From Fabrea salina (taxonomy: Eukaryota; Ciliophora; Heterotrichea; Heterotrichida; Fabreidae): DNA of 64,000 bases. Location: positions 1 to 64,000 of the forward strand of contig JALIHJ010000029.1 in NCBI GenBank assembly GCA_022984795.1, read 5' to 3'. Under the pieces are notes generated by a model. The model saw only the letters and a list, made by a program, of their open reading frames with translations, made no database searches and was not told the origin of the DNA. Numbering within the stretch: the first letter of the stretch is position 1; every line of letters begins with the position of its first letter. A program made the translations under genes and the position numbers. Of the stretch, positions 1-61,982 are shown piece after piece.

Positions 1-1003
1 CACCCTAACACCCTAACACCCTAACACCCTAACACCCTAACACCCTAACACCCTAACACCCTAACACCCTAACACCCTAACACCCTAACACCCTAACACC
101 CTAACACCCTAACACCCTAACACCCTAACACCCTAACACCCTAACACCCTAACACCCTAACACCCTAACACCCTAACACCCTAACACCCTAACACCCTAA
201 CACCCTAACACCCTAACACCTAACACCTAACACCCTAACACCCTAACACCCTAACACCCTAACACCCTAACACCCTAACACCCTAACACCCTAACACCCT
301 AACACCCTAACACCCTAACACCCTAACACCCTAACACCCTAACACCCTAACACCCTAACACCCTAACACCCTAACACCCTAACACCCTAACACCCTAACA
401 CCCTAACACCCTAACACCCTAACACCCTAACACCTAACACCTAACACCCTAACACCCTAACACCCTAACACCCTAACACCCTAACACCCTAACACCCTAA
501 CACCCTAACACCCTAACACCCTAACACCCTAACACCCTAACACCCTAACACCCTAACACCCTAACACCCTAACACCCTAACACCCTAACACCCTAACACC
601 CTAACACCCTAACACCCTAACACCCTAACACCCTAACACCCTAACACCCTAACACCCTAACACCCTAACACCCTAACACCCTAACACCCTAACACCCTAA
701 CACCCTAACACCCTAACACCCTAACACCCTAACACCCTAACACCCTAACACCCTAACACCCTAACACCCTAACACCCTAACACCCTAACACCCTAACACC
801 CTAACACCCTAACACCCTAACACCCTAACACCCTAACACCCTAACACCCTAACACCCTAACACCCTAACACCCTAACACCCTAACACCCTAACACCCTAA
901 CACCCTAACACCCTAACACCCTAACACCCTAACACCCTAACACCCTAACACCCTAACACCCTAACACCCTAACACCCTAACACCCTAACACCCTAACACC
1001 CTA
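1..1003. repeat. Telomere, (CACCCTAA)n, C-rich strand
   Basis: About 121 head-to-tail copies of CACCCTAA form the left chromosome end, with the C-rich strand reading 5' to 3' inward, as expected at a left terminus. The 8-mer is the heterotrich telomere unit. Four units are 7-mers (CACCTAA), arranged as two adjacent doublets at 217-230 and 431-444, separated by exactly 25 normal units. The array stops sharply at CCCTA|GAATAG, and an open WD40-like frame ends only 33 bases further in. Confidence 0.98.
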
Positions 1004-5031: not shown

Positions 5032-5362
5032 TATTAAGGGTAGGTAAAGACTTTTGAGATGACTGGGTGTAGCATCCATAGAAGTGAGTTAGAACTCGAA
5101 ATCAAAATCAAAGTAACTCAAAAAGAACACTCAATACAACTTAGCATCAGTTACCTTAAAGAACTTAAGAAGAGCTGTGATATGCTACTTAAAGACTGCA
5201 GAGTCACAAAGAACTACCTAGCACTTTTATATTGATTTTAGTTTGGTGTGTTTCATTGTTATGAATATTCCCCCACGTAGTTGCTGTGAAGATCCCTAAT
5301 ATTATTATGCAAACTGGAAGAAGAAATTGCCCCAACAAGCCAGATCTCCGGGCAAAGAGAAT

Positions 5363-5629: not shown

Positions 5630-5759
5630 AGGTGAGTAATTAATCAATTAACTTGTAGCTTAAAGTCTTAAGTACTTTAAATAGGGTGTTAGTGACTTTA
5701 GTTCTGCCAACAATGGTTTGAGTAAGAGCAGTACTTGAAGCAGACAAAAAAGAACCAGA

Positions 5760-6130
5760 ATGATTTTGATAAGACTCAAGTTGATGGATAATTCAGTTGG
5801 GAGTACTTTGACTACAAAAATGCAGAAACTGTGCTTGAACTTTGATGTCACTGAAACTAACCTGTTCTTTGTGGTTGCTATTTCTGATGCTACTGAGTTT
5901 ACAGACCAACTGATCATTTCTCAACCAGACTTTGAAATGCTTTGAAACTAACTCCAAGTGCCAAGAAGGTCAAACTGCTACAGATTTACTTCAGCAACGA
6001 AGAAGGAATCAGGAAACTAGCTTGTCTAAAGCCCATTGCAGAACTCACAAACAAGAGAAGAGGCAAGAAACACCACAATGGAAGGCACCCAATATCAATA
6101 GATTCGTTTGAGAGGTTTCTAGAAGCCTAG
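5760..6130 (+). pseudogene. Possible broken gene in two frames
   Basis: Two adjacent plus-strand open frames look like halves of one protein. The first ends at a TGA at 5943-5945, and the second, in another frame and without an ATG, continues to a TAG at 6130. The first half is mixed hydrophobic (NLFFVVAISDATEF). The second is basic, with KRRGKKHHNGRH. No 15- or 16-nt intron joins them. It fits the pattern of decayed genes in this subtelomere, but both halves are short and chance is possible. Confidence 0.3.
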
Positions 6131-6280
6131 GGCAAAGCTAGTGAGTAACACGACTGATAAAAAAATGTTTAATAAGTTAATTGTTTGGGACTCAAGTATT
6201 AAGTTCTTCTTAGTAGCTATAGAGTCCAGTAACTTGGAGTTACTAAGTAAGTTGACACAGTAGCAATTCCTTGAAGAACT

Positions 6281-6372
6281 TCTAGAAACTAGACTCCATG
6301 CCTAGAGTGGTTTCTAATCAAAGTGTGACTGGACTACCAAGTCACTCTGACTGGTCCTCAGAAACTCAGGCA
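6281..6372 (-). pseudogene. WD40 repeat relic
   Basis: The minus-strand translation reads SDLVV.SHFD.KPL.AWSLVSR with two stops, matching the D..VVSGS.DKTLRVWSL.S core of the WD40 repeats at 1862-2608. The region is about 90 bases with no surrounding open frame. It is a small dead fragment of the same repeat family, left in the spacer before the transporter gene. Confidence 0.45.
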
Positions 6373-6497
6373 CCTCTAGATGTAAAGTTAGCAGTTTGAA
6401 GTTTGAGTACTGGGTTGGATTCAACTCAAAAGCAGTTTGTGGTTCTATAATTTTATGGTAGGTCCTGAATAAAGTTCAGTAACTAAGCTCGACATAA

Positions 6498-28881: not shown

Positions 28882-28887
28882 TAATAA

Positions 28888-34662: not shown

Positions 34663-35151
34663 TCAAGAATTGCTATGGTTCTTAATTTGGGCTTTGAGGG
34701 CTTTGTACTTTTCTTTGTACTTATCAGCTTGCTCAACCAGGATCTGCAGCGACCTTTCATCGTACTTATTGAAAATACTGGGTTCTGTCTGGGCTTCTTG
34801 GTCTTTGAACTGTGTGTTGATTTCGTACTCTGCTACGTATATGATCAGCCAGTCCCAAACTTCTTCTGTGCTGTGGGGGAACTTCACAAGCCCGTAGCTT
34901 TTTCTGTAGGGATCTCTTTCTATCTTCCTTCCGTTGTGGAGTTGTCCTTTGTAAGTCCAGTAACACTTAAAGAAGTATATGTCCAGTATTTCGGAAATCT
35001 GTCTTTTACACCCTCCACACTTACTTAGTTTGGCAGTTTTTGCTACGTCGAACTTAGAGTTTTTTCCCAAGTACAACAACATAGGTTTGTTTTCGTAAGC
35101 GCAGTCTGGTGTCAAGCACCTGACCGAGAAATAAGCCCCATTATGAATCAT
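34663..35151 (-). CDS. Cys-rich zinc-binding-like protein
   Basis: A 162-residue protein from ATG 35151, chosen because the frame has no earlier ATG. Residues 5-60 read GAYFSVRCLTPDCAYENKPMLLYLG, then SKCGGCKRQ, then FFKCYWTYKG. That is CxxxxC...CxxC...C, a probable zinc ribbon of a kind seen in many protist proteins next to ubiquitin-like or RING modules. The C-terminal third is a coiled coil (QILVEQADKYKEKYKALKAQI). The ATG is only 10 bases from the divergent plus-strand ATG at 35162. Function unassigned. Confidence 0.6.
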   Translation of the reverse strand: MIHNGAYFSVRCLTPDCAYENKPMLLYLGKNSKFDVAKTAKLSKCGGCKRQISEILDIYFFKCYWTYKGQLHNGRKIERDPYRKSYGLVKFPHSTEEVWDWLIIYVAEYEINTQFKDQEAQTEPSIFNKYDERSLQILVEQADKYKEKYKALKAQIKNHSNS

Positions 35152-35161
35152 TTCCAAGAAA
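35152..35161. promoter_or_regulatory. 10-base divergent start-codon spacer
   Basis: Minus ATG 35151 and plus ATG 35162 are separated by TTCCAAGAAA. At least one transcript must begin inside, or with a leader inside, the other gene. Confidence 0.5.
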
Positions 35162-35983
35162 ATGCACAGGCGCAAACTTCGTGACTTGAAAGCCAAAACC
35201 GAGCTTAGTAACTACAGGCAAAAGTCAGTTCCTTCTAACGCTACTGCGTACCTTTCTTTGGTCCAGTCTAACTTAAGCCAAACCAACACTCCTAGAAGCA
35301 AAGCTGAATCCCACATGCGTTGGAAAAGAAGAAAACTCGAAAGACAACTTGTAAGTTTTAGTTAGTTGCAACTTAAAAGCAGCCAAAAGGTAGACCAGAG
35401 GAAGTCTGTTGAAAAAGTTATTACTGAAAGTCCCCAACTCAGGGAACTTCCTGTCACTAGACGTCTTAACTCACAGAACTCTTACAGACCTGCTTTGAAC
35501 CGCAGTGAGTGGGAAGACTTCCGCAGAACTTCCCCTTCTCAACTTAAGACTACACTTCCCCAAAGCGTTCTTAAAAAAGACTTGCAAGGAATCAACCAAA
35601 TACTTGAAAAGCACAACCAACAAGAACAACTCCAGGAGTCCAAGCAAAAAGCCAAAGACCAAAACCGACTTAGTTTGCGGTTAAAACTCTTTGAAAGACA
35701 CCAAAACACCCAAGTTTTAGAAGCTAAGTCTGGAGTAATCAAAAAAAGGTCAAGTACCTCTTTTGCAAGAACTCAAGAATCCCCTAACTGCTCCCAAAGA
35801 CTCACTCAACTGAGTCTTCCTAAAAAAACTTACCACCTTGGGTCTTTTTTCATGCACAAAGACTTTAGAGGCTTAATCCATATTGACTTTGCAGACGCTT
35901 TGAAAAGCACTAAACGGAGCAGAAGGGACAGTTTAAAGTCCTCAAATGCAAATATGAAATCTCTTAATTCTAAAGTTATTTAG
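35162..35983 (+). CDS. Basic helical protein, two exons
   Basis: Exons 35162-35350 and 35366-35983, joined across a 15-nt phase-0 intron, give 268 residues. It is Lys/Arg/Ser/Gln-rich, with a helical segment at about 130-180 (VLKKDLQGINQILEKHNQQEQLQESKQK, in part). Basic, Ser-rich termini suggest microtubule or nucleic-acid association. It starts 10 bases from the minus-strand zinc-ribbon gene and ends 8 bases before the rhomboid. Not recognised. Confidence 0.65.
35351..35365 (+). other. 15-nt intron
   Basis: GTAAGTTTTAGTTAG, phase 0, A at position 10, in-frame TAG if retained. Confidence 0.88.
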
Positions 35984-39712: not shown

Positions 39713-39719
39713 AAAAAAA
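39713..39719 (-). terminator. Pol III oligo-T terminator of tRNA-Thr
   Basis: Seven T bases on the minus strand at the 3' end of the tRNA, ending 10 bases before the kinesin start codon. Confidence 0.7.
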
Positions 39720-39791
39720 GCCCCCAGCCGGACTCGAACCGGCGACCTTTTGCTTACAAGGCAAATGCTCTACCAACTGAGCCATAGAGGC
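39719..39791 (-). tRNA. tRNA-Thr (UGU)
   Basis: The 73-base gene folds into a full cloverleaf. The acceptor is GCCTCTA with TGGGGGC, the D arm has GCTC...GAGC, the anticodon stem is TTTGC/GCAAA with loop CTTGTAA (anticodon TGT), and the T arm is GCCGG TTCGAGT CCGGC with discriminator T. No intron and no encoded CCA. Internal A and B boxes are present for Pol III, and a run of T follows (complement of 39713-39719). It sits between two divergent protein genes. Confidence 0.97.
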
Positions 39792-39838
39792 TTCTGGGTT
39801 TGAAAGCCCTCATTTACTTAAATAAGTCTACCTTGTAA

Positions 39839-42082: not shown

Positions 42083-42086
42083 AAAA
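42083..42086. promoter_or_regulatory. 4-base divergent start-codon spacer
   Basis: The sequence CAT-AAAA-ATG places the DUSP and GID4-like start codons four bases apart on opposite strands. Confidence 0.5.
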
Positions 42087-42545
42087 ATGCTAACTGTGAA
42101 GCCTGTTAAGCTTGCACCTGGAACTTGTTTTGTAGGAGTCAAAAAAAGCTTTTCGGAAGAAGAAGGCCCAGCACTTACGCTTAAAATTGACAGAGTCTCG
42201 CAGAATTACTTAAGTGGGGAAGTCGAGTGCGAAAACCACAGGAGAATCTGGGACGGGGAAGCTTCAGAGGGCTTCCCGGGTGCTTTTTCTTCTCTGAAAA
42301 GCAACTCTTTTCCAGAACTGCTGCTTTGGACTAACTTCCAGAAGTTAGGAAGTGCTAGGAACACTTTGTTTTTGAGAATAAAAGAAGAACAGGGAGGCAT
42401 TTATTTCCTTGCTTTTGACAAAAGTTACGGGGGCTTCTGGGGATACTACTTTTTGCAAGAAGAACGCAGAGTGCAGAAGGTGTTTTTGCAGTACAAGAAT
42501 TCTGGGACTTTTGGAATTTCAAACGGAATCTTAGAGTATCTATAA
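42087..42545 (+). CDS. GID4/Vid24-like substrate receptor
   Basis: The 152-residue protein starts at ATG 42087, the only ATG available before the conserved part. LAPGTCFVGVKKSF...LTLKIDRVSQNYLSGEVEC, then NTLFLRIKEEQ and GIYFLAFDKSYGGFWGYYFLQE matches the beta-barrel of GID4 (LYPGSRFRGHQKS, YLCGYLKI, FMRWKEQF, GFYYICFQKS...GYYY). GID4 is the N-degron receptor of the GID/CTLH ubiquitin ligase. The middle loop (FFEGEI in yeast) is shortened to WDGEA. Assigned by eye. Confidence 0.6.
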   Translation: MLTVKPVKLAPGTCFVGVKKSFSEEEGPALTLKIDRVSQNYLSGEVECENHRRIWDGEASEGFPGAFSSLKSNSFPELLLWTNFQKLGSARNTLFLRIKEEQGGIYFLAFDKSYGGFWGYYFLQEERRVQKVFLQYKNSGTFGISNGILEYL

Positions 42546-42592: not shown

Positions 42593-43462
42593 ATGATAAG
42601 GTGGCTAGTACTTGCTTGTGTAGTAAGCACTTCTTTGGGTTGGTGGTGCACCGCCCACATGACAATTGCTTTGATTGCTCAGAGAGAACTTGAAGGAACT
42701 CCTGTTTGGGACAAAGTGAATGAAATACTGAATCCTTTGTTTGGAGACTTGACTCACAATATTGCAAACAGCTTTGTGGAAACAGCTTGTTGGGCTGATG
42801 ACTTACAAGAATGGGGTCTTTTCTTTGCTTACCCCTGGCACTTCATAGACCAGCCTTATAACACTGTGGGGTTCTTAAATGCTACAGCTTCAGGACCCAA
42901 TGTTTTGTGGGCAATCGATCAAGCTATTGAGACCCTAACTTTCGATCCTCCAAGTCCTGCTATTCTTGAGAAGTCTATGATGATGAGGTTCTTGATTCAC
43001 TTTATGGGAGACATGCACCAGCCTCTCCACGTAACTAGTATGTGGAGTCGCGACTTCCCTCACGGAGACTACGGAGGCAACTTACTTAAAATCAAGTGGG
43101 ACGAAAACATAGTTGAGTTGCATGCTTTCTGGGACGCAGGTGTGGGTTATTTGGAGTGGGACGTTCCCAGACCTCTAGATGCTAAGGGTTGGGGCCAGAT
43201 TGCTACTTACGCAGACTGGGCTACTTCTAACTACACGCGAGCAGACCTCGAGGACCTTTTGCAAGTAACTGACAGAACTTACTGGGCAGAGTTTAACTTT
43301 TTGACTGCAGTTAACTACTGTTACAATGGAATCCAGCAGTACCAAGTGCCCACTCAAGACTACATAGAAAGGGCGTGGCCTATAGTTATGCGGCAAATTG
43401 CCTTGGCTGGTTACAGACTGGCGGATGCCCTTAAGTCTATTTACGGAACTAATAATATCTAA
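42593..43462 (+). CDS. S1/P1-type zinc nuclease, secreted
   Basis: The 289-residue protein has a signal peptide (1-16) and a mature N-terminus W17, which with H22 fits the canonical trizinc site of S1/P1 nucleases (Trp1, His6). Other ligands are visible: ETACWADD, PWHFID, HFMGDMHQPLHV and VELHAFWDAG. It degrades single-stranded DNA and RNA, probably in food vacuoles or extracellularly, and contributes to nutrient recycling. Stop codons of this and the ArfGAP gene are directly adjacent (convergent). Confidence 0.95.
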   Translation: MIRWLVLACVVSTSLGWWCTAHMTIALIAQRELEGTPVWDKVNEILNPLFGDLTHNIANSFVETACWADDLQEWGLFFAYPWHFIDQPYNTVGFLNATASGPNVLWAIDQAIETLTFDPPSPAILEKSMMMRFLIHFMGDMHQPLHVTSMWSRDFPHGDYGGNLLKIKWDENIVELHAFWDAGVGYLEWDVPRPLDAKGWGQIATYADWATSNYTRADLEDLLQVTDRTYWAEFNFLTAVNYCYNGIQQYQVPTQDYIERAWPIVMRQIALAGYRLADALKSIYGTNNI

Positions 43463-44467
43463 TTAAGAGAATCTTTGTTGAAACTTGCTCCAAAAATTAA
43501 CAGCTTTGTCTTTGATTTTTTCTGCCTTTTCAGCAGCAATGTGGGCGTACCTAGCAGCTTCTTCTTTAAAGTAGTCAGCGTCTAGTTCTGGCTTGGACTG
43601 TTCTCGGCCAAAGTACATGTCGCTCGAGATGGCTTTTTCGCCTGAAAGTTGTTGCATTCGCATTTTCCTGAAGGTGTCGTCTTCCTTGGAGTTGTTGAAG
43701 TCTTCTGAGGAGATAGCTTTTTTTTCAGTGGTTTTGCGTGAAGCAATATGTGCAGGTTTGGGTTCGAGTACTATAGTTTTGGGTTTTTCAGGGGGTTTTA
43801 GGGGTTGTGGTTCAAAGTACTCTTCTTCACTAGGAGGTTTGAAACTCACAGGCTTAAACATGAACCCTGAGGGTTTGGACTCGTTAGTTTTGGTTTTTCG
43901 AAAAGAGTGAGTTTTGGAAGTGTCTAAAGGAGCGCTTTGCTTGAACCTATAAGTTTGGGGCTTGACTGGCAAAGGGGGGTCTTCGGTCTTAGGCACCTCT
44001 GGCTGGGTTTCTTCCAACTTAACTTTTGGTTTAGGTTCTGACTCAATGGGTTCTTCTTTGGGCAGTGGAGACAAGTCTTCAGAGTTTTTTTTAGGGTAAA
44101 TTTGGCAAACAGTTTCAAACAACTCAGTTCTCCACCTTTCAGCAATTTGGGACGAAAAGTCTACAGCGCCTTGGACTCCATGACTTCTAAAGAACTCTTT
44201 GGCCTTTTTGTTGCCTGCGTTTTCCATGAAACACAGTTGTCTTAGACTCCAGAGGTCGTAGTCCGAAGACCTTACAAAACTCAGGTGGGATCCCATTTGA
44301 CGGTGGTGCGTCGTACAGTTGTAGCACAAGAATATTCCCAAGTTAACTGAACACCAACTAGGGTTCCGATTGCCGCATTCAAAACAAGTTTGGTTTTCTG
44401 GGCTGAGCTTAAGTTTGGCAAACACTGAGTCTCTGTAGTCTTTGTCAACTTTAATGTCAGGGTCCAT
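43463..44467 (-). CDS. ArfGAP2/3-like protein
   Basis: The 334-residue protein has an ArfGAP domain (about 15-125). It carries the C-x2-C-x16-C-x2-C zinc finger (CFECGNRNPSW...FLCYNC) and the arginine finger in HHRQMGSHLSFVRS. The C-terminus is long and disordered, with Pro/Glu/Lys repeats and a final helix (YFKEEAARYAHIAAEKAEKIKDKAVNF) similar to the lipid-binding helix of ArfGAP2/3. It turns off Arf GTPases on Golgi COPI vesicles. Confidence 0.92.
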   Translation of the reverse strand: MDPDIKVDKDYRDSVFAKLKLSPENQTCFECGNRNPSWCSVNLGIFLCYNCTTHHRQMGSHLSFVRSSDYDLWSLRQLCFMENAGNKKAKEFFRSHGVQGAVDFSSQIAERWRTELFETVCQIYPKKNSEDLSPLPKEEPIESEPKPKVKLEETQPEVPKTEDPPLPVKPQTYRFKQSAPLDTSKTHSFRKTKTNESKPSGFMFKPVSFKPPSEEEYFEPQPLKPPEKPKTIVLEPKPAHIASRKTTEKKAISSEDFNNSKEDDTFRKMRMQQLSGEKAISSDMYFGREQSKPELDADYFKEEAARYAHIAAEKAEKIKDKAVNFWSKFQQRFS

Positions 44468-44493: not shown

Positions 44494-45249
44494 TTAACTA
44501 TGGTAGGGGTTTCCTTGTAAGTGGTCGTCTATGTCAGTGACCATCCAATCTGAGGAACAAAAGGGCCAGTTGCCTCTGTTGCAAGCAAAGTAACTAATGA
44601 TCCAGCCCGTAGACACAACATTCTGCAGTAGTCCAGGTTGCATTTTTTTCATGATTTCAAATCTGAACTTGTGTCTTTCAGGGTTGGTGCTTTCGTTTCC
44701 AAAAATGACTTCTGAGTTTTCGTTTTTGACAATAAGCTTAACTGAGGAGTAAACTACTACATCTACTTTGAAAACTAAGTGGTTGTCTTGGGGTTTGCCT
44801 AGTTTTGTGTAAAAGAAGATATCTTGTGTGTCGAGTCTGGGTTCTTCTACTAAGTTTTCTCTGTAGTCAGCTAAGCTTTCGACTTCGTAAGAGTTGTTTA
44901 CGTTCTGGTTGCGCACTAAGTCTACTCCTTTTGTGACTTGTGCATTGTAAAAAAACACAAATACAGGAGAATCAGTATTTACAATTTGAAGCGAGTGGTT
45001 CCTCCGACCTACTGTGGACAAGCAATTGTGGACCTCGGAAAGCATCCTAGGTTCCAGCACTGACTTAAGTAAGTAGTCTTCTTGGTTGACCATTCCTTTT
45101 AGGAGGGACTTGAAAGCTAGTTCAAAACCAGGCTTGATCTCTTGGAGTTCCTCGTCCAGTTTAGGTCTCAAAGGAAGTAAGTTGTAAAAACCCTGTCCAT
45201 TGAACTTCCAAGGGAATCTTAAGTGTTCGAATTCCTTTGTCAGATTCAT
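44494..45249 (-). CDS. Possible Tim44-like mitochondrial protein
   Basis: A 251-residue protein from ATG 45249 (an upstream ATG at 45309 would extend into the opposite cNBD gene and is less likely). It has a helical N-half (GFELAFKSLLKGMVNQEDYLLKSVLEPRML) and a beta-rich C-half. The layout with a helix-then-sheet fold weakly resembles the Tim44/MBA1/mL45 domain. The tail is aromatic and Cys-containing. It is 6 bases from the divergent cNBD start. Function uncertain. Confidence 0.5.
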   Translation of the reverse strand: MNLTKEFEHLRFPWKFNGQGFYNLLPLRPKLDEELQEIKPGFELAFKSLLKGMVNQEDYLLKSVLEPRMLSEVHNCLSTVGRRNHSLQIVNTDSPVFVFFYNAQVTKGVDLVRNQNVNNSYEVESLADYRENLVEEPRLDTQDIFFYTKLGKPQDNHLVFKVDVVVYSSVKLIVKNENSEVIFGNESTNPERHKFRFEIMKKMQPGLLQNVVSTGWIISYFACNRGNWPFCSSDWMVTDIDDHLQGNPYHS

Positions 45250-45255
45250 TCTAAA
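45250..45255. promoter_or_regulatory. 6-base divergent start-codon spacer
   Basis: TCTAAA separates the ATG of the minus gene (45249) from ATG 45256. Confidence 0.45.
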
Positions 45256-46662
45256 ATGGAAACTAGAACAATGGAAAAGCTCCTTCTGAACTCCCAAAAT
45301 CCAAAACATTCCAAGCCCTCTTCACTAAGGTCTTCTCCTAATAAGCACTTAAGTCCTACCTTCCCCTTAACAACTAGAAGCAGAGTGCTGCCTGGAAGCT
45401 TTGCACACAAAAAAAGATCAAGCTGTGGTGGACCTGAACTCAACTCAACCACTCCTAAAAGCAACCCACGAAAGTCTTCTATGGCTGAAACTGATTTTTT
45501 TCCTAGTTGGCTATTGGGAAGAGAAGACTTTAAGCAGATTATAACTCGTTTAGAAAACATAGACAACTTAGACATAGGGGAGGTTTGTGAAAAGTCCCCA
45601 GACTCCAGGGATGAAATAGACATTAAGGCCATTAAGCACTGGGCTAAACGGTACAGTTTCTTCGACAACTTAACTACTTACACTATGAACGAAGTTTGCA
45701 AACAACTAAAGCACAAGTTTTACGACAAAGGAGAAGTAATCATGCAAGAAGGTGACATTGGAGACTGTGTGTACTTCATAATCAACGGGAAAGTAGGCAT
45801 TTACAAAGGAAAAACTAAAGTCAACACTTTAGGACCTCCTCACAGCATAGGCGAAAAAGCTTTGGAAACTGATTCCACTCGCACAGCTACCATCAAAGCT
45901 TTAGTTCCTACCAACTGTTTAATCCTCACTAGGGAAGAGTATGCTTCTTCAGTGCTTTCACACAAAGCCACTGAAAAAATACAAATCGTAGAGTTCCTGA
46001 AACAAGTAGAGTTCTTTAAAACCTTGCAAAGAGGCAAACTAGAAGGACTCGCTTGGGGAATACAAACTTCCAAGTATCATAAAGGCCAACTAGTCTACAA
46101 CCAAGGTGATCACCCTTCCCACGTTTTCATAGTTAAAAGAGGTTCAGTGGAGATCAACGCGTTTGTCACTCTAACCCAAAAAGCAAGGATTCCTAGGTTC
46201 AAGCACAAAGAAGAATTTTTAGTTAACACCAAAAACTACATCCAACTTATAAGGAAGTGCAAGCCTGGAGAAGTCTTTGGAGAGCAAGAGTTTTTTCCTC
46301 TGCAAACTCGCAAACTCCAAGCAACTAGCTCTAGCGAAAACACCCTGCTCCTGATAGTGTCTATTGAAACCTTGAACCAGAACTTAAGTGACAAAGACAA
46401 AAAAGACTTAGTTAATATGCACTCTGCAAGGCCTACTACTCAGTCTCTTAAAAAGAAGTTGTCTAAAGACCTTTTTCTGAAACACCGCAAGTACAAAGCT
46501 ATTTTAGAAGCTGCTAATGTCTCTCCCATGCCTTACGGACGGTTCTTCCTGGACCAAAGGACCAACAAGAAAGAAGAACTTGCTAAACAAATCACCTCTC
46601 TGCACAACAAAGAACTTTCCAGAAATCTACTGAAGTCCAGGTTTAGTATAACTAATAAATAA
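45256..46662 (+). CDS. Cyclic-nucleotide-binding protein, two cNBDs
   Basis: The 468-residue protein carries two cyclic-nucleotide-binding domains, about 128-245 and 248-390. The first shows YDKGEVIMQEGDIGDCVYFIINGKVGIY and a phosphate-binding cassette GEKALETDSTRTATIKA with the conserved Arg, so cAMP or cGMP binding is plausible. The second has HKGQLVYNQGDHPSHVFIVKRG but its cassette (FGEQEFFP) is atypical. No kinase or channel domain. It resembles CNBD2-like proteins. The next ATG directly follows its stop (TAAATG). Confidence 0.85.
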   Translation: METRTMEKLLLNSQNPKHSKPSSLRSSPNKHLSPTFPLTTRSRVLPGSFAHKKRSSCGGPELNSTTPKSNPRKSSMAETDFFPSWLLGREDFKQIITRLENIDNLDIGEVCEKSPDSRDEIDIKAIKHWAKRYSFFDNLTTYTMNEVCKQLKHKFYDKGEVIMQEGDIGDCVYFIINGKVGIYKGKTKVNTLGPPHSIGEKALETDSTRTATIKALVPTNCLILTREEYASSVLSHKATEKIQIVEFLKQVEFFKTLQRGKLEGLAWGIQTSKYHKGQLVYNQGDHPSHVFIVKRGSVEINAFVTLTQKARIPRFKHKEEFLVNTKNYIQLIRKCKPGEVFGEQEFFPLQTRKLQATSSSENTLLLIVSIETLNQNLSDKDKKDLVNMHSARPTTQSLKKKLSKDLFLKHRKYKAILEAANVSPMPYGRFFLDQRTNKKEELAKQITSLHNKELSRNLLKSRFSITNK

Positions 46663-47151
46663 ATGTATCCTAGCCAAAGTGAAGCAACTTGGACCCAACA
46701 AGTTAGTTTGCCAGACAACATTTTAGAAGAACTCGAAACAGAAGAAGTTTTTTGGAAAGACGTAGTTAACTTAGCTGTTCCCAAAACTGAAAAGTTCAGT
46801 GCTAGCTCTGGTTGGGTCAAAGCTTTGTCTTACTTAAGACTTCCAACAGACAACGCTCACTTAGGACTCAGTGAAGGAGAACTAAGCCACCCACTTAATA
46901 CTTCCAACTGCAAAGCCTTAGTTGAGTCCTCCAAAGTAGGAATGTTGCTTCTCCAAATTTCTGAAGTACTTGGAGAACGCACTTTCAAAGCTAAGGACTT
47001 AACAGGTGAGGTGCTGTGTGCTGTGCATCCTTCAGTGCTTCAAAAGTACACTCTGGAAGAATCCCAGGTCATTCTTTTATACGAAGTAGTAGTTCTGCCT
47101 AAGTTTTTACTTAACATCACTCTTAAAAACATAGTAAAGATTTTCCATTAA
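46663..47151 (+). CDS. Unknown 162-residue protein
   Basis: The start codon abuts the previous stop (TAAATG) with no spacer. The sequence is mildly acidic at the N-terminus (LEELETEEVFWKDVVNLAV) and has a helical hydrophobic C-terminal third (VILLYEVVVLPKFLLNITLKNIVKIF). No signal, membrane helix of clear length or motif. It is 2 bases from the next gene, so three plus-strand genes here are nearly fused. Not recognised. Confidence 0.55.
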   Translation: MYPSQSEATWTQQVSLPDNILEELETEEVFWKDVVNLAVPKTEKFSASSGWVKALSYLRLPTDNAHLGLSEGELSHPLNTSNCKALVESSKVGMLLLQISEVLGERTFKAKDLTGEVLCAVHPSVLQKYTLEESQVILLYEVVVLPKFLLNITLKNIVKIFH

Positions 47152-48666: not shown

Positions 48667-50115
48667 TTACTTCAACTTATGAATGATACTTAATAGTTTT
48701 TTGAGTTGGATTGTGTTAGGGACTTCTTTGCGCAGGGAGTCAAACGAGCTTTTTTGGGCAGCTAAGTCTTGGTTCGTAGTTTCTAGTTGGCTTAGTAAAC
48801 TTCTGTTGTGGGACTTTTGGTGCTTTAAGGATTCTTTGAGTTCAGTTATCTGGGCTTTTTTAGCACTTAAAGCTTCTTGCGTGGGTGGTTTTAAAGAGTT
48901 AAGTTGGAACTTTAAGTTATCGTTTTCTACTTTGAGCAAAGTTATTTCTTCCAAGAGCCTTTTTTTCTCGGCAAAAAAGTTGTAGTCTTTGATTAAAGGT
49001 TTAAGTTCTTTTTGGGAGTTTAAAACACCTATTTGGGACTCCAGCGACTCGTTTTTAGCTAGTGAATCCTGGAGTTGCACTTGGAAATTGTGGTTGGATT
49101 CTCTGAGTTGGTTGTTTTCAGCTTCTAAAAGGTAAAGTTTTTTTTTAAGCGTAACTAATTCTTGGTCTTTTAGTTTATTTTGTGTTTTGAAGTAGTTGAG
49201 TGACTGGTTCAGTCCTCTAGAGTGCTTTTCGAAGAAGTTAAGTTTGGAAGCTGTAAATGAGCATTCGAGTTTGAGTTCTTTAACCTCCGTTGGAGGTCTA
49301 AGTAGCTCTAGTTCCTTTTTTTGGTTTTCAACAACAATTTCGAGTTGTTTTAAGTATTCATCTTTGTGTCTTTGGAACTGTAGGTCTTTGATGAGTCTTC
49401 CTTTTAAGTCAAGCAGTTTTTCTTCGAGAACCTTTGTTTCCTCAACTGTAGTGAAACCCATTGAAAAGTTTAGTTTCTTGCAGACCAGGCTTTTAACTTG
49501 TTGAGAAAGTGCAAAAAATTTGTCTTGCAGGGAGTGGTTAGTTGCTACTTCTTGTTGGAGTTGCAACTTAAGTTCTTGGGATTCTTGACTGGACTCCAGC
49601 AAAGCTTTGTAGTCTTCCAAAAGGTGCTTATAGTCTTCTTTGAGTTTGATTATTAAAGGTGCTTTTTCTTCTAAGTCACTTAAAAGTCCGTGCAGTAAGT
49701 TTTCTAGTGTTTTTAGTTTAGACTTGGTTTCAGTGAACTCGGCAAACTCAGAAGCCTTAGACTCTATTTCGCTAAGTAATTCGTTTAAGTGGAACTCTAA
49801 AAACTTAACTTTTTCTTGCATGTAAATTTGTGACTGGATAGCTGGGGCCTTTTGCTCGATGTCTTGTAGAAGCTGGGTTAAGCTTTGCTCTAGCACTTGA
49901 AGTTTGTGTTCCGTTTCTTTGGTTCTCTCTAAAAAAGGGGCTTTTTCTTCGATATCAGACAGCAACTCGTTAAGTTGGGTTTCTAGGAATTGTTTTTTCT
50001 TTTGGTCTTCTTTGTAAGTGACTATTTGTTTTTCCTGGGCTTCGATCTGGGAAAGGATGTCTTCTAAATGGGTTTGCAAAGTTATTAGTTTGTCTTCTGG
50101 GCTCAGTTGTTCCAT
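48667..50115 (-). CDS. Coiled-coil protein with 31-residue tandem repeats
   Basis: A 482-residue coiled coil from ATG 50115. The first 160 residues hold at least four tandem units of exactly 31 residues around the core LE..LNELLSDIEEKAP (LETQLNELLSDIEEKAPFLE, LEQSLTQLLQDIEQKAPAIQ, LEFHLNELLSEIESKASEFA, LENLLHGLLSDLEEKAPLII). Heptads continue with no globular domain. It is likely a structural cytoskeletal or basal-body protein. The unit length is 93 bases. The start is 9 bases from the divergent gene. Confidence 0.75.
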   Translation of the reverse strand: MEQLSPEDKLITLQTHLEDILSQIEAQEKQIVTYKEDQKKKQFLETQLNELLSDIEEKAPFLERTKETEHKLQVLEQSLTQLLQDIEQKAPAIQSQIYMQEKVKFLEFHLNELLSEIESKASEFAEFTETKSKLKTLENLLHGLLSDLEEKAPLIIKLKEDYKHLLEDYKALLESSQESQELKLQLQQEVATNHSLQDKFFALSQQVKSLVCKKLNFSMGFTTVEETKVLEEKLLDLKGRLIKDLQFQRHKDEYLKQLEIVVENQKKELELLRPPTEVKELKLECSFTASKLNFFEKHSRGLNQSLNYFKTQNKLKDQELVTLKKKLYLLEAENNQLRESNHNFQVQLQDSLAKNESLESQIGVLNSQKELKPLIKDYNFFAEKKRLLEEITLLKVENDNLKFQLNSLKPPTQEALSAKKAQITELKESLKHQKSHNRSLLSQLETTNQDLAAQKSSFDSLRKEVPNTIQLKKLLSIIHKLK

Positions 50116-50124
50116 TTGATTATT
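50116..50124. promoter_or_regulatory. 9-base divergent start-codon spacer
   Basis: TTGATTATT separates the minus ATG (50115) and plus ATG (50125). Confidence 0.45.
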
Positions 50125-50886
50125 ATGAATTATCATAGGCTAGCAGGCTTGATTTGGGTAGTTTTTGTTTACTATGTTTGGTTTATGCTTAGGAAGCTGA
50201 AGTACTGGAGGTATTCACTGGCAGTTGTGTTAGTGATACTTGCAAGTTTACTGCTTTTTAAGGACACCCAAATCAGTGTCACAGTATGGCTAGGATTGGA
50301 GCTTTCTGTTAAAGCTTACGCTGCTGTTATTTCAAGCACTGCACTTTTGATAATTGCACTTGCTGGATTTTTTTTGCATGTGGCTATTATTGAAAACTTT
50401 ACCTTAAACTTCCAAGCAGACTGTAACTTACTAAAGCCAATAGGAGATAGCTTTCTTCTAAGAGCAAGCTTAGTTCCACTTATGATTTCTTGTGGGTTTC
50501 CTCTGTTTCACACAATTATTACTCTTTCAATACTTAGGGCTGGTTTAGGGTGTTACTCTATCTTTGTAGAGCAAAAAGCCAGCAACCAAGAAGCTGCCTT
50601 TGTGACAGTTGGGTTATTTATTAGAGAATGCTACTCAGTGTACTCTTACATGATTACTGGAAGTGCTTATCCTTTAGTTATTGTGGAGTTTGTTTCTAAG
50701 TTAGTGACTACTCCTGGAATTGACTTCTTTGAAGAGACTAGCAACCTTTACGGCTACAGGTACTTGTTAGTATTTACTTACTTAGCAGGTATGGTAACAT
50801 TCAGCTGGCTGTTTCCACTGATAATGAACCCTAGCTTATTTAAAGGCTGGCCATTGGATTACTACCACAGCTTAAATGAAACTTAA
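50125..50886 (+). CDS. Polytopic membrane protein, unknown family
   Basis: A 253-residue protein from ATG 50125 with about six hydrophobic helices (LIWVVFVYYVWF, LAVVLVILASLLLF, AAVISSTALLIIALAGFFLHVAII, ASLVPLMISCGFPLFHTIITL, LLVFTYLAGMVTFSWLFPLIM). There is no signature motif I can name. It is likely in the ER or plasma membrane. It lies 9 bases from the divergent coiled-coil gene, and the PLAC8 gene follows after 7 bases. Confidence 0.65.
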   Translation: MNYHRLAGLIWVVFVYYVWFMLRKLKYWRYSLAVVLVILASLLLFKDTQISVTVWLGLELSVKAYAAVISSTALLIIALAGFFLHVAIIENFTLNFQADCNLLKPIGDSFLLRASLVPLMISCGFPLFHTIITLSILRAGLGCYSIFVEQKASNQEAAFVTVGLFIRECYSVYSYMITGSAYPLVIVEFVSKLVTTPGIDFFEETSNLYGYRYLLVFTYLAGMVTFSWLFPLIMNPSLFKGWPLDYYHSLNET

Positions 50887-50893
50887 TAATAAA

Positions 50894-52140: not shown

Positions 52141-52989
52141 TTAAGAGCACATAAAGTACACCCCAGTTGCAGAAAGCACTGAACCTAACACTCTAGCAAT
52201 CCAGATGTTTCTAGAGTTCCTTTTGTCTAAAAGCTCTACCAGCTTTTCACAGGGCACCTCTCCTTCTTCCACAAGTAACCAGCTTCCTTTGTAGGGTTCT
52301 ATTTTGTTCCTTCTTTGTTCTCCTATAACACTTACGTAAAGGTTATTTGGAACGTACGAGTACTTTACTTTGTAGTCGCCTACAACTGGTTTTTTGTAGG
52401 AGTTGTTTTTCCTGACTTTTTTGGTTAAGTAGTAGTACTCTGAGTCTTTGTAGGCAACAAAACCCTTTTTCTTAATGTGTTCTTGTTCTTCTGGCTTGAG
52501 AAGTACTGGTTTGAAGTCCCAAACTGTAGTAAGTTTATCAACCACTTCTCTGCCTACTGTAAAAGGAGCTAGGTAATACTCCTGGCCTGCATAGATTTGG
52601 TCAGTCAAAAACTTCCACTGGGGGTTCTTTTTGGACTTGGGGTGCGACTTTGAAGGAATAGAGTCAAAATGCCACACTGGACGGAACTTCCCAGAGTCCT
52701 TTGACCACTGGAACATTTCTACTTTTCTAAATAGCTTAGCTGCTTGGATTTCTATTCCTAACTGAGGGTCCTTCAAATAGGTGCCTTTTGTGTTCCTCAG
52801 CATCCCAGAAGCATACACAAGTTTTCCTTCGTTTTCAGGAAGCACTTCCATGGGCTCTTTAACGTTTTCTTTGATCGTTCTGAAGACGTAATTGGCATAA
52901 GCATAGTACACTTCACACACCACCCAAGCAGCAGCCGAAAGGCCAAAAAGGCCATAGCCAAGTTCTTTTAAGGGTGTTTGGTTTTCCAT
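52141..52989 (-). CDS. TMEM43: TMEM43/LUMA-like membrane protein
   Basis: A 282-residue protein from ATG 52989 (MENQTPLKELGYGLFGL...). It has an N-terminal membrane helix and C-terminal hydrophobic segments around a luminal domain with YASGMLRNTKGTYLKDPQLGIEI, then KLFRKVEMFQWSKDSGKFRPVWHFDSIPS. This matches the TMEM43 family, a protein of the inner nuclear membrane and ER. Starts 4 bases from the divergent GNAT gene ATG. Confidence 0.8.
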   Translation of the reverse strand: MENQTPLKELGYGLFGLSAAAWVVCEVYYAYANYVFRTIKENVKEPMEVLPENEGKLVYASGMLRNTKGTYLKDPQLGIEIQAAKLFRKVEMFQWSKDSGKFRPVWHFDSIPSKSHPKSKKNPQWKFLTDQIYAGQEYYLAPFTVGREVVDKLTTVWDFKPVLLKPEEQEHIKKKGFVAYKDSEYYYLTKKVRKNNSYKKPVVGDYKVKYSYVPNNLYVSVIGEQRRNKIEPYKGSWLLVEEGEVPCEKLVELLDKRNSRNIWIARVLGSVLSATGVYFMCS

Positions 52990-52993
52990 AAAT
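52990..52993. promoter_or_regulatory. 4-base divergent start-codon spacer
   Basis: CAT-AAAT-ATG: the TMEM43 and GNAT genes start 4 bases apart on opposite strands. Confidence 0.5.
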
Positions 52994-54205
52994 ATGGACT
53001 CCTTGCCTGACGGAATAGTTATAAAGCAGTATAACGAAGACATGCACCCCTTGCTTGAGGACTTAGAAATTTCAACAGCAATTCCTCTGGGCAAGCAGTT
53101 CCCTCTGAACCAAATTAAAGCTTGCAACAGCCTCCAACAGAACTACAATGCCAAGTCCAAGCAATTTAAAGAATTCATTATCCTGGTGGCTTTGGAAGAA
53201 CTGACACAAAAAGTAATAGGTGTAGTCAACGCTGTAGTTAAGAAGGTACTTTTTTCAGGCAAGTCAGAAGTGAAAGTGGCCCAGATGTTTGGACTTAAAG
53301 TCCACAAAGCTTACAGGAGAAAAGGCATTGCGTCTAGCTTGTGCTTGAAACTTGAAGAACACCTGTTTAAGTTAGACGTTTCTTACCTGTACGTAAAAGC
53401 AGACTCTACTAACTACAAAGCCAAAGGACTGTACATGAGTAAACTAAACTACATGGAAGCCTCGACACTGCGTGTAAAGATCCTCAACGCAGAAAAGTCT
53501 TCTGAGTATGTTTCAAAGGTCTCTGTAGACAAGGGTTTGCGACTTACCAAAGACCACTATCAAGACAAAGACATGACACTAGTGGACATTTGGGACGTTT
53601 TTAAGTCAAATTACTATGTAGGTACTTATGTAGCAGAAAGTGGGGACAGCATTGCTGGAGTGTCTTTGTGGGACTCTTCAGGCTTAGAAGACATGAACCT
53701 CGTCAAAGTTATTTTGGAGTTGGAAACCCTAAAGAAACCCTTTGTGCATGTACTATGCTTGTTGGGTATACTCTTACTCACTCTAGCAAGCTTGGCTTTG
53801 ACTGTGGTTGGTTTCCACTTAATAAACTCCTGGTTTTTTTCAGTTTGTTTTTTGGTGTTGGCTGTTTGGGTGCTGATTAAGGTGCTTAAGTTTGGTTTTG
53901 TGTTTGTGAAGTACTCGCACTACGCCATTTACAAAAAGCAAGCAAGGCGTGGGAAACTGTTTGGTTTGTTTTACAAAGGAGAAGAATCTGCCCGCAAGCA
54001 ACTGGTCAAACAACTAATTCAGGGCGTTAAGTACGAAGCTCAGAAACTAGGACTGGAATACTTAATTTTTGAATACGGCAGTAAAAGTCCTCAAGCTAAG
54101 TACTTCCCAATTTACAACTTTTCAATGCAAGTACTTCAAAAAGCTTTAGGAAGAGCCTCAGTTAATGAATGGTCAGCTGAGAGCTTTCTAGATCCAAGAG
54201 AATGA
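52994..54205 (+). CDS. Membrane-bound GNAT acetyltransferase
   Basis: The 403-residue protein has an N-terminal GNAT domain (about 1-170). It includes the acetyl-CoA-binding pattern YRRKGIASSLCLKLEEHL (R/Q-x-x-G-x-G/A) and a beta-bulge region VSYLYVKADSTNYKAKGLYMSKLNYME. Two adjacent hydrophobic helices at about 255-305 (VLCLLGILLLTLASLALTVV, VCFLVLAVWVLIKVL) place the enzyme on a membrane. The C-terminal domain looks like a second, degenerate GNAT half. The gene resembles HLS1-like or N-acetyltransferase proteins. The stop abuts the AMPK-beta stop. Confidence 0.75.
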   Translation: MDSLPDGIVIKQYNEDMHPLLEDLEISTAIPLGKQFPLNQIKACNSLQQNYNAKSKQFKEFIILVALEELTQKVIGVVNAVVKKVLFSGKSEVKVAQMFGLKVHKAYRRKGIASSLCLKLEEHLFKLDVSYLYVKADSTNYKAKGLYMSKLNYMEASTLRVKILNAEKSSEYVSKVSVDKGLRLTKDHYQDKDMTLVDIWDVFKSNYYVGTYVAESGDSIAGVSLWDSSGLEDMNLVKVILELETLKKPFVHVLCLLGILLLTLASLALTVVGFHLINSWFFSVCFLVLAVWVLIKVLKFGFVFVKYSHYAIYKKQARRGKLFGLFYKGEESARKQLVKQLIQGVKYEAQKLGLEYLIFEYGSKSPQAKYFPIYNFSMQVLQKALGRASVNEWSAESFLDPRE

Positions 54206-54985
54206 TTATTTAATCGGTTTATAGTAAACAGTAGTAACAAATTTGTCACGGTACCGCTGAGTGGTAGTGAGTCCTATAACGCGTTCGTTAGCTCTGACTC
54301 CTAAGTGGTTCAGAATTACGTGGGGTGGAATAGGCAGTTCGTTGGAAGGCAAGTTGTTTTCACCAGCCAGTTCAGCGTTAGTCTGTTTTATAGGAGAGTT
54401 GAAAGGAATGGTTTGCTTTTGCCTGTAGTCGTAAGAATTAGAGTGGTTAGTAAGTACATAGTGCAGGTGGAGGGGCAAAGGGTCAGGTTCCATAGTTGTG
54501 AGATCTGCGCAGAGTTCCTGTGTGTACGTGTCTGCCAACTTAGCTTCTTCAAAGGTTTTTTTGTTTTCTTCGAAAGTAGAAGTGTCAATCCAGTTGTTGA
54601 TGTTGCCGTGTTCGTCCTTTTTCGTGGGTTGGTCAGGAGCGAACCTCCACTCGTTATCTACAATGAACTTATACTCATGAGTCACTCCTTTTTCCAAAAG
54701 TACTTCAAGTTGGAACTCGCCGTCTGCTTTTTCCATGCGGAGTCTTTCTCTCCAGCCGTTAAAAGACCCTATCACAAACACTTCGTTGCCTCCGAAGTTC
54801 CACTTGAAAGTCACAGAAGTTTTGTTAGGGTCCGAATTCATGGCAGAAGTGTCAATTAGTGAAGAGCCTAAAGAACTCTCTTTGCTCGAAGCGTCTAAGT
54901 TAAGGCTGTCAGTGTGCTCAAGGTCTTCTCCTTGGATGAATGAGTTGGTTTGGTTGCTTTCGGGCTTGGCGTTCTGACTTCCCAT
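54206..54985 (-). CDS. PRKAB: AMPK beta subunit
   Basis: A 259-residue protein from ATG 54985. It has an N-myristoylation signal MGSQNAKP, a CBM48 glycogen-binding module (about 70-150; VTFKWNFGGNEVFVIGSFNGWRE, EYKFIVDNEWRFAPDQP) and the C-terminal ASC domain (about 185-259; PLPLHLHYVLTNHS, PPHVILNHLGVRANERVIGLTTTQRYRDKFVTTVYYKP) that docks alpha and gamma. Energy-sensing heterotrimer; myristoylation localises it to membranes. The starting ATG is 10 bases from the divergent Prx5-like gene. Confidence 0.95.
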   Translation of the reverse strand: MGSQNAKPESNQTNSFIQGEDLEHTDSLNLDASSKESSLGSSLIDTSAMNSDPNKTSVTFKWNFGGNEVFVIGSFNGWRERLRMEKADGEFQLEVLLEKGVTHEYKFIVDNEWRFAPDQPTKKDEHGNINNWIDTSTFEENKKTFEEAKLADTYTQELCADLTTMEPDPLPLHLHYVLTNHSNSYDYRQKQTIPFNSPIKQTNAELAGENNLPSNELPIPPHVILNHLGVRANERVIGLTTTQRYRDKFVTTVYYKPIK

Positions 54986-54995
54986 TTTATAAAGT
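54986..54995. promoter_or_regulatory. 10-base divergent start-codon spacer
   Basis: TTTATAAAGT between AMPK-beta (54985) and the Prx5-like gene (54996); it includes TTTATA. Confidence 0.5.
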
Positions 54996-55454
54996 ATGTT
55001 AAAAAGAAGTATCCACACTGGAATGGTTATTCCTAGAGCTAGAGTTGCAGTGGTTCAGAAGTTCTACAAGCAGGTAGACTTGCAGTTCAACATAGACTCC
55101 TTTACTTACTTTTCTAACAAAAACGTGGTTTTACTAGGTTTTTCAGGAGCTTATTTGCCTGACGAAGACTTAGTTGGGGAACTCGACAAACTCGGAGAAG
55201 AAGTAGAGGACTATGCACTCTTAGGTTTAAGTGTGAACGACCCCTACGTACTCCAGAGGTACTCTAAAAACTTTAAGTCAAATATAGGATTCATTGCAGA
55301 CGCAGCCGGCCACTTAACTAGAAGTTTGGAAGCAGGAGTGTATATTAAGAAGTACAACATTGGGTTGCGCACTAAGCCTTTCTTAAGCGTGATTAAAAAA
55401 GGAGTAGTTACTGCAATGCTTGACAAGGATTCTAAATTAGTTAACCAGTTATAA
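54996..55454 (+). CDS. Cysteine-free Prx5-like protein
   Basis: The 152-residue protein has a basic N-terminal presequence-like part (MLKRSIHTGMVIPRARVAVVQKF) and the peroxiredoxin-5 fold: VVLLGFSGAYLPD, LLGLSVNDPYVLQRY, IGFIADAAGHLTRSL, GLRTKPFLSVIKKGVVTAMLD. In active Prx5 the first motif is GAFTPTC with the peroxidatic Cys; here it is GAYLPDE, and the whole protein has no cysteine at all. It cannot reduce peroxides. It probably has a structural or chaperone role in mitochondria (inference). Confidence 0.8.
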   Translation: MLKRSIHTGMVIPRARVAVVQKFYKQVDLQFNIDSFTYFSNKNVVLLGFSGAYLPDEDLVGELDKLGEEVEDYALLGLSVNDPYVLQRYSKNFKSNIGFIADAAGHLTRSLEAGVYIKKYNIGLRTKPFLSVIKKGVVTAMLDKDSKLVNQL

Positions 55455-58001: not shown

Positions 58002-58997
58002 ATGGGATTGTGGTACTTAGGTCTTTTGTTACCGGCAGCACTGGTGGAGTACGGACTGTACACTTTGAAGCCTGTAGCCGACTACTACTCTTCAAAGCCA
58101 GTTGAGGGCTTAGATGTTTCTAGAAGGTATGATGTTAATAAGTGGAGCAGAATCAAGTTTTATATTGGAGCTTACTTTTTGCTTCCTTGGCGGCTTGCTC
58201 TTATGATGTTTAGTGTAGTAGCTGATTATTTAGTTACCAAGCTAGCCCTGATTAACTGGAACAACCAACCTAAACCGCTTCCTAAATGGCGTAGAACAAT
58301 CATCGCTAATGCCACAAGGTTCTTATCTAAGATTCTTTTGTTAGGAGCTGGATTCTGGAAAGTCGAAGAAGTAGGCAAACCTTCAGACCAGGCTTGTGTA
58401 ATCGCTTCCAACCACTGTTCTTGGGTAGACATCATTTACTTCTTAACCTCCCCTGAGTTTCCTAGCTTTGTGAGCAAAGACGATGTTGAGCAAATGCCTT
58501 TTATAGGAGCCATAGCTACTGCTATTCAGTGTGTGTTTGTGAAAAGACTTACAGGAAAGGAACAAGCACTTAAACAAATGGCTGCTAGACAGTTATCCAT
58601 TAAAAACCAAGAAGGCTACCCTAAACTTTTGGTGTTTCCTGAAGGAACCACTACCAATGGCACTGGGCTCATAAGGTTCAAGAAGGGCGGGTTCGTTGAA
58701 AAGGTTCCTGTGCAGCCAGTGTATTTAGAATATTCAACGGGGGACTTTTCGCCTTGTCTGGAGATTGTGCCTATGGTAGCTCACGCAATTCTTCTAGCTT
58801 GCCAGTTCAGTAACAAACTTAAGGTGCACAGACTTGAAACTGTTACTGCAAAAGAAGACTGGACTCCTCAGGACTACGCACAGTACGTGAGAAATGTAAT
58901 TTCGCATCGCTTTGACCTACCTCAGTGCGAAGTGACCTTTGAGGACATATCAGACCTTTACTACAAGATTTTTAACTTAGAAAAAAAGATTAACTAG
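58002..58997 (+). CDS. PlsC-type acyltransferase, copy 1
   Basis: The 331-residue protein has one or two N-terminal membrane helices and an acyltransferase domain. Motif I is SNHCSWVDIIYF (H-x4-D) and motif III is FPEGTTTNGTG. It resembles lysophospholipid acyltransferases of the LPCAT/LPEAT type, acylating lysophospholipids in the ER. Copy 2 follows at 59003 with the same length (constant offset of 1001 bases), and three DNA blocks are almost identical, suggesting recent gene conversion. Confidence 0.88.
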   Translation: MGLWYLGLLLPAALVEYGLYTLKPVADYYSSKPVEGLDVSRRYDVNKWSRIKFYIGAYFLLPWRLALMMFSVVADYLVTKLALINWNNQPKPLPKWRRTIIANATRFLSKILLLGAGFWKVEEVGKPSDQACVIASNHCSWVDIIYFLTSPEFPSFVSKDDVEQMPFIGAIATAIQCVFVKRLTGKEQALKQMAARQLSIKNQEGYPKLLVFPEGTTTNGTGLIRFKKGGFVEKVPVQPVYLEYSTGDFSPCLEIVPMVAHAILLACQFSNKLKVHRLETVTAKEDWTPQDYAQYVRNVISHRFDLPQCEVTFEDISDLYYKIFNLEKKIN

Positions 58998-59002
58998 TAA
59001 TT

Positions 59003-59998
59003 ATGGGAATTTGGTATTTACTGCTTTTAGTTCCTTTAGTTTTGGTGGAGTATTCACTCTACAAACTTACACCAGTAGTTAAGTACTACTCGTCTGACTC
59101 ACAGCAAGAATTGGATGTTTTGAGAAGGTATGATGTTGGCAAGTGGAGCAGACTCAAGTTTTACATTGGGGCTTACTTCTTGATGCCTTGGAGGCTTATT
59201 CTGATTATACTTAGTGTAGTGGTTGACTATTCACTTATCAAGCTAGCTTTAACTAAGTGGGGGAGTTGTTCAAAGCCTCTTCCTAAGTGGCGCAGGAAAA
59301 TTATATACTACAGCACAAGATTCTGGGCAAGGGTACTTTTGTTAGGAGCTGGATTCTGGAAAGTCGAAGAAGTAGGCAAACCTTCAGACCAAGCTTGTGT
59401 AATCGCTTCCAACCACTGTTCTTGGGTAGACATCATTTACTTCTTAACCTCGTCTGAGTTTCCTAGCTTTGTGAGCAAAGCAACTGTGCAAGAAATGCCT
59501 TTTATAGGAGCCATAGCTACTGCTATTCAGTGTGTGTTTATTGACAGAGTCTCTGGCAAAGAGGAAGCCCTTGCCCAAATGACCCAAAGACAGTTATCCA
59601 TTAAAAACCAAGAAGGCTACCCTAAACTTTTGGTGTTTCCTGAAGGAACCACTACCAATGGCACTGGACTTTTGTTTTTCAAAAAAGGAGGTTTCATGGG
59701 AAAAGTCCCTGTGCAGCCAGTGTACTTAAAGTATTCACTTGAAAACTTTTCGCCTTGCATGGAAGTTGTGCCTATGGTAGCTCACGCAATTCTTCTAGCT
59801 TGTCAGTTCAGTAACAAACTTAAGGTGCACAGACTTGAAACTGTTACTGCAAAAGAAGACTGGACTCCTCAGGACTACGCACAGTACGTGAGAAATGTAA
59901 TTTCACAGAAACTAAGCATTCCTCAAAGCCCACTAAAGCTTGAAGACAAAGTTGAAAGACTGCAGCAAATTTACAACTCAAAACAAAAACTTACTTAA
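59003..59998 (+). CDS. PlsC-type acyltransferase, copy 2
   Basis: The 331-residue tandem copy of the 58002 gene has the same HCSWVD and FPEGTTTNGTG motifs. N- and C-termini differ more than the catalytic core (LLLVPLVLVEYSLYKL versus LLLPAALVEYGLYTL; different last 20 residues). The two probably share chemistry but may differ in substrate or place. Near-identical DNA blocks: 59336-59480, 59588-59667 and 59766-59904. Convergent with CWC25 after 6 bases. Confidence 0.88.
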   Translation: MGIWYLLLLVPLVLVEYSLYKLTPVVKYYSSDSQQELDVLRRYDVGKWSRLKFYIGAYFLMPWRLILIILSVVVDYSLIKLALTKWGSCSKPLPKWRRKIIYYSTRFWARVLLLGAGFWKVEEVGKPSDQACVIASNHCSWVDIIYFLTSSEFPSFVSKATVQEMPFIGAIATAIQCVFIDRVSGKEEALAQMTQRQLSIKNQEGYPKLLVFPEGTTTNGTGLLFFKKGGFMGKVPVQPVYLKYSLENFSPCMEVVPMVAHAILLACQFSNKLKVHRLETVTAKEDWTPQDYAQYVRNVISQKLSIPQSPLKLEDKVERLQQIYNSKQKLT

Positions 59999-61977: not shown

Positions 61978-61982
61978 ATTAT
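61978..61982. promoter_or_regulatory. 5-base divergent start-codon spacer
   Basis: CAT-ATTAT-ATG joins the FKP gene (61977) and the Gemin5-like gene (61983). Confidence 0.5.

Follow-up and report, generated by a model that had tools for sequence, protein, structure and literature searches.

Closely spaced divergent genes in the macronuclear genome of Fabrea salina: general gene packing and possible near-leaderless transcription

Seven pairs of divergent genes whose start codons lie 4–10 nt apart in a 64,000-base stretch of Fabrea salina DNA (the window) are ordinary for this genome; the packing is general and divergent genes are not the tightest. We favour, with moderate confidence, a joint reading in which the seven pairs fall at the low end of the gap sizes found throughout a streamlined heterotrich macronuclear genome, and in which RNA polymerase II would start within ~10 nt of the ATG, producing near-leaderless mRNAs from tiny A/T initiators. 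The first-pass annotation had taken such extreme packing to suggest an unusual initiation mechanism. This is supported in part, by signs of short leaders. Gaps between tandem and convergent genes are, however, as small or smaller; the spacing reflects the packing of the whole genome and is not in itself evidence for an unusual mechanism.

The seven pairs and the gaps around them

The window comprises bases 1–64000 of a 266,719-base contig, in an assembly of 18.33 Mb and 103 contigs. The F. salina genome is 18.35 Mb in size; Zhang et al. reportedly described it in 2022 as the streamlined macronuclear genome of a heterotrich. Bases 1..1003 form a telomere of ~126 copies of CACCCTAA, an array of permuted CCCTAACA repeats in the form found in Blepharisma. 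Genes are read with the standard code, and the 34 predicted 15-nt introns (the only length allowed) all begin with GTA and carry an A at position 10 in 33 cases. Judged by telomere, code and 15-nt introns, this is a heterotrich ciliate macronuclear genome. Introns of 16 nt in the first gene model were judged spurious and were disallowed in later models. At 20345–20362 (+), a predicted gene model opens with a 3-nt exon, an ATG followed at once by a 15-nt intron; if real, the start codon would be the whole exon. The subtelomeric region 1004–6500 is poorer in gene models than the remainder of the window and holds a short WD-repeat-like ORF (1862–2608, −; labelled by eye), while a lone telomere-like CCCTAACACCCTAA lies near 3296–3309. 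Two tandem paralogues of 331 aa each, acyltransferase-like by eye and 5 nt apart (58002–58997 and 59003–59998, +), combine stretches that look near-identical with others that have diverged, a pattern like that left by gene conversion.

All seven ATG pairs were found where the first-pass annotation had placed them. There are two 4-nt spacers: AAAA (42083..42086) lies between a DUSP-like gene (−, start 42082) and a weakly GID4-like gene (+, 42087–42545), and AAAT (52990..52993) between TMEM43 (−, 52141–52989) and a GNAT acetyltransferase gene (+, 52994–54205). The 5-nt spacer ATTAT (61978..61982) separates a gene without a Pfam family (−, 60769–61977) from a WD40 gene (+, from 61983); the 6-nt spacer TCTAAA (45250..45255) likewise follows a gene without a Pfam family (−, 44494–45249) and precedes a cNMP-binding gene (+, 45256–46662). 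The 9-nt spacer TTGATTATT (50116..50124) is flanked by a coiled-coil-like gene (−, 48667–50115) and a membrane-protein-like gene (+, 50125–50886), both labelled by eye. Of the two 10-nt spacers, TTCCAAGAAA (35152..35161) stands between two genes without a Pfam match (−, 34663–35151; +, 35162–35983), the second of which has a 15-nt intron at 35351 and was scanned against Pfam in its first exon only. The other, TTTATAAAGT (54986..54995), contains TTATAA and is bordered by AMPK-beta (−, 54206–54985) and a weakly Prx5-like gene (+, 54996–55454). Among the gene names proposed in the first pass, TMEM43 and AMPK-beta were confirmed by Pfam. The others are weaker: DUSP rests on a DSPc match below the Pfam cut-off in a scan of an unspliced piece, GID4-like on Vac_ImportDeg (E 0.0017) and Prx5-like on Redoxin (E 0.0058).

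Genes were modelled with a custom gene finder based on codon usage, which allows only 15-nt introns, bans overlaps and includes a start-context term favouring A/T-rich contexts. The gap-length comparison that the first-pass annotation had envisaged across the whole genome was carried out on a 314-kb sample (1.7% of the genome) with 272 gene models, 91% coding; models shorter than 210 bases were excluded from the gap counts. Small gaps occur in all orientations. Roughly a quarter to a third of the gaps in each orientation measure 10 nt or less (16/61 divergent, 38/134 tandem and 20/59 convergent), the medians being 34, 19 and 16 nt, respectively, and divergent gaps in this sample are not significantly longer than tandem (p 0.10) or convergent ones (p 0.20). 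The distributions are the same in kind when the start-context term is omitted. Four of the 59 convergent gaps measure 0 nt; in the window, stop codons of convergent genes abut at 43462..43463 and likewise at 54205/54206, and a tandem stop codon runs directly into the next ATG at 46662..46663 (+). Short divergent gaps (10 nt or less) account for 6/12 in the window and 10/49 elsewhere in the sample (Fisher p 0.06).

Divergent gaps of 3 nt or less are absent from the sample (0/61, compared with 22/193 in other orientations; Fisher p=0.003), and the same 4-nt floor is seen without the start-context term (0/61 and 21/192), although it is weakened by the gene finder's ban on overlaps and by a test chosen after the data had been seen. 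Sites of the form CCAT-W(k)-ATGG number 26, 27, 32 and 22 genome-wide for k=2, 3, 4 and 5, with 14, 2, 2 and 2 for reversed controls; these counts cannot split real pairs from chance coding matches, and the floor therefore rests on the 314-kb sample.

Close tandem genes are often joined by TAATAA or TAATAAA leading into the next ATG (e.g. 28882–28887 and 50887–50893); TAATAA is present in 28/98 tandem gaps, compared with 14.7 in shuffles. Some longer divergent gaps are occupied too, since a tRNA-Thr gene (anticodon TGT; 39718–39792, −) lies within the 135 nt that separate a kinesin-like gene (labelled by eye; −, ends 39703) from the gene that follows (+, from 39839).

Leader length and signals at start codons

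Upstream ATGs can serve as a proxy for leader length, since an ATG inside the leader competes with the true start whereas one upstream of the transcription start does not. Counting the two other frames only, at 256 starts, out-of-frame ATGs occupy 1/1024 positions at −8..−3, compared with 219/21504 at −146..−21 (Fisher p 0.0009). The count is 8/1024 at −14..−9, and 14/1024 at −20..−15, where there is no depletion relative to the region farther upstream (p 0.27). Position-specific composition predicts 11.9 ATGs at −8..−3 where one was seen (ratio 0.08); this expectation is generous, as ATG falls below it in every bin, the 21 bins at −146..−21 giving ratios of 0.26–0.85 with a median of 0.54. 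The −14..−9 bin has a ratio of 0.52, and the lowest bin, −8..−3, is alone in standing out. Among 159 unambiguous starts, which have no nearby alternative, the figure at −8..−3 is 1/636. The close pairs alone give 0/128 at both −8..−3 and −14..−9, numbers too small to place start sites. Because out-of-frame ATGs are nearly absent at −8..−3 only, the data suggest leaders of ~8 nt or less.

Base composition also marks the start codon. Divergent and tandem gaps of 1–10 nt are 91–92% A/T and convergent gaps of that size 71%. At close divergent starts in the first-round 234-kb sample, A/T content is 0.82 over the 10 nt that directly precede the ATG and 0.55–0.61 farther out. An A/T-rich signal is thus found directly at the start, as near-leaderless transcription would have it. 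The first-pass annotation had reasoned that, with no room for an ordinary promoter, either leaders are almost absent or transcription starts inside the partner's coding sequence. The first branch gains support from the near-absence of out-of-frame ATGs over ~8 nt and from the A/T signal within 10 nt of the ATG, while the second fares worse, tests for signals in the coding sequence being mostly negative.

In the mechanism that we propose from these sequence patterns, an A/T-rich initiator, sometimes with TTATAA, would set the RNA polymerase II start within ~10 nt of the ATG, and mRNAs would be nearly leaderless as a result. In the closest pairs, the spacer and the margin of each start codon would be common to both initiators, and 5′ ends would therefore overlap by perhaps 10–20 nt at most. 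The polymerase would assemble over the partner's first codons, where a strong motif would not be needed. A tentative extension, to which we give less than even credence, is that one A/T stretch of 4–10 nt may hold the polymerase II start for both of two opposed genes, the enzyme assembling on codons of the partner and 4 nt being the lower limit between opposed start codons. The odds that opposed genes really use a single common core are modest.

In close divergent genes, the first codons are no richer in A/T (0.593, and 0.596 in tandem genes), and TTATAA is not in excess there (1 vs 0.57); A/T at third positions is 0.579, compared with 0.636 in tandem genes (p 0.08). These results, together with the lack of ATG depletion at −20..−15, speak against mRNAs that start 15–25 nt upstream in the manner of Paramecium, which in close pairs would place the start inside the partner's coding sequence with a 5′-to-5′ overlap of ~30 nt. 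We regard such starts as unlikely, even though leaders of this order are reported in other ciliates, with a median of 19 nt in Paramecium (PMC5485702) and ~18 nt, with a TATA-like box, in Halteria (PMC7858049); those reported leaders were measured and are longer than the ~8 nt suggested here. Overlapping transcription is also reported at more than 80% of the analysed loci of Encephalitozoon (PMC2803860), and AAAGCA, among four strings that were tested, is mildly raised at the 5′ end of the coding sequence in close divergent genes (14 vs 7.65; uncorrected p 0.025). Given this mild rise, the partner's coding sequence may hold promoter elements. A longer candidate element, AAAGCAYT, seemed enriched upstream and proved weak when compared with its rate in coding DNA. 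It was found 3 times at the 5′ end of close divergent coding sequences (1.4 expected, p 0.16), 6 times in divergent gaps (1.6 expected, p 0.006, uncorrected) and once in tandem gaps (4.4 expected). Elsewhere on the window's contig, a 69-nt divergent gap (bases 111626–111694, in L023) contains two inverted copies of AAAGCATT; this string occurs 6 times in the sample's divergent gaps, with 1.6 expected at the coding rate.

TTATAA, a palindrome picked after k-mer scans of the same sample, is present in 15/55 divergent gaps of 4–150 nt, compared with 4.9 in dinucleotide shuffles, none of 200 shuffles reaching 15. It is not enriched in convergent gaps (1/38 vs 1.6 in shuffles). Genome-wide there are 26 sites for the symmetric string CATTTATAAATG, compared with 4 for its reversed control, and a second such string, CATATTAATATG, has 6 where its control has 0. 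The enrichment of the palindrome in divergent gaps, the excess of CATTTATAAATG and the 4-nt floor described above would fit a single short bidirectional core in each spacer, a single pre-initiation platform that would co-regulate both genes and itself impose the floor. A precedent is found in Encephalitozoon, where a palindrome between head-to-head ribosomal genes 35 bp apart is reported as a proposed shared core. For F. salina we consider this arrangement improbable. At the 12 CATTTATAAATG sites examined out of 26, a modelled start lies on at least one side in all 12, on both sides in 4 and on one side only in 8, a scoring aided by the gene finder's preference for A/T-rich contexts. Among the 4 two-sided sites, L036 is doubtful, as its left frame, unless spliced, meets a stop codon after 7 codons; at another site, L037, both sides are open frames not taken by the gene model. 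TTATAA is moreover absent from the 8 sample spacers of 4–6 nt, and tandem gaps show a weaker excess too (12/98 vs 7.0 in shuffles, a count reached in 6/200), to which stop codons may contribute a part. The floor itself was tested post hoc under a ban on overlaps. TTATAA marks starts, at the examined CATTTATAAATG sites mostly of one gene.

Choice of start codons

In six of the seven pairs the gene finder chose both starts, with or without the start-context term. In the seventh it took 50185 in place of 50125. A metagenomic relative of this + gene, P0004 (253 aa, 92% identical), begins with a residue that matches 50125; the two proteins agree at 18 of their first 20 residues, and P0004 has Thr at the gene finder's later Met. 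As P0004 begins there, with Thr at the alternative Met, 50125 is probably the true start. For the 52989/52994 pair, the 97% relatives P0001 (282 aa) and P0003 (403 aa) share their predicted protein ends with TMEM43 and the GNAT gene, respectively. The longest contig is 50,572 bases for P0001, P0003 and P0004 alike, which suggests one syntenic contig. A search of viral contigs that used two of the proteins found no relatives.

In four of the pairs a start is an ATG internal to a longer ORF (three ORFs reaching 53043, 45309 and 50136, and one running from 41898), and the internal ATGs chosen in the first-pass annotation correspond to non-overlapping starts. When the most upstream ATG is taken throughout the sample, 10/61 divergent pairs overlap and 9/61 are 0–10 nt apart. 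At 32 close divergent starts, the first codons score as coding (0.218 per codon), like other starts, and the frame upstream scores as non-coding (−0.232). It is thus very improbable that several of the ATGs are not true starts, with later ATGs or upstream exons giving a spacing of 50 nt or more: the internal ATGs, the overlapping pairs and the gene finder's preference for 50185 would favour this, but first codons have a coding score, three genes share predicted protein ends with their relatives, and convergent gaps, which are independent of start calls, are equally small.

Known systems and meaning for Fabrea salina

Parallels to near-leaderless initiation are found outside the ciliates. Giardia leaders are reported to be mostly under 20 nt, with a short A/T-rich initiator that includes the start site (PMC3792122). 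Giardia lamblia is alike in this initiator and in having opposed start sites close together, as reported in the same paper; it differs in that start sites were measured there, while here they are deduced from sequence. In Encephalitozoon cuniculi, leaders under 7 nt are reported and a palindromic A/T signal is proposed for two divergent genes (PMC2803860). The short leaders that seem likely here, and the palindromic A/T signal at divergent genes, resemble this system. Unlike F. salina, E. cuniculi is described as a parasite with a 2.9-Mb genome, an example spacer of 35 bp and a CCC-like motif.

Within the heterotrichs, 3′ UTRs are reported to have a median length of 21–23 nt and are sometimes absent (PMC4967479), consistent with the 0-nt convergent gaps seen here, although those data concern 3′ ends and other species. 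Blepharisma stoltei is reported to have CCCTAACA telomeres and introns of 15–16 nt (PMC9942806), and resembles F. salina in its gene density, short intergenic regions, 15-nt introns and CCCTAACA-type telomere. Stentor is likewise reported to have 15-nt introns of the kind found here (PMC9505925), and short 5′ UTRs in ciliates are an assumption in PMC11441545. A search of the literature on heterotrich start sites and promoters found no title on heterotrich leaders; subscription journals, most of which lay outside that search, may hold such work.

Tiny head-to-head spacing is normal in the F. salina sample and is not by itself the mark of special pairs. Two numbers lend themselves to testing, the 4-nt floor in divergent gaps and the 8-nt footprint of missing upstream ATGs. 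If near-leaderless initiation is true, a free-living ciliate would transcribe its genes, which number many thousands when extrapolated from their density, from hardly any promoter DNA. The near-leaderless cases in the papers cited are parasites; F. salina would then show, in a free-living organism, how little sequence may suffice for a eukaryotic promoter.
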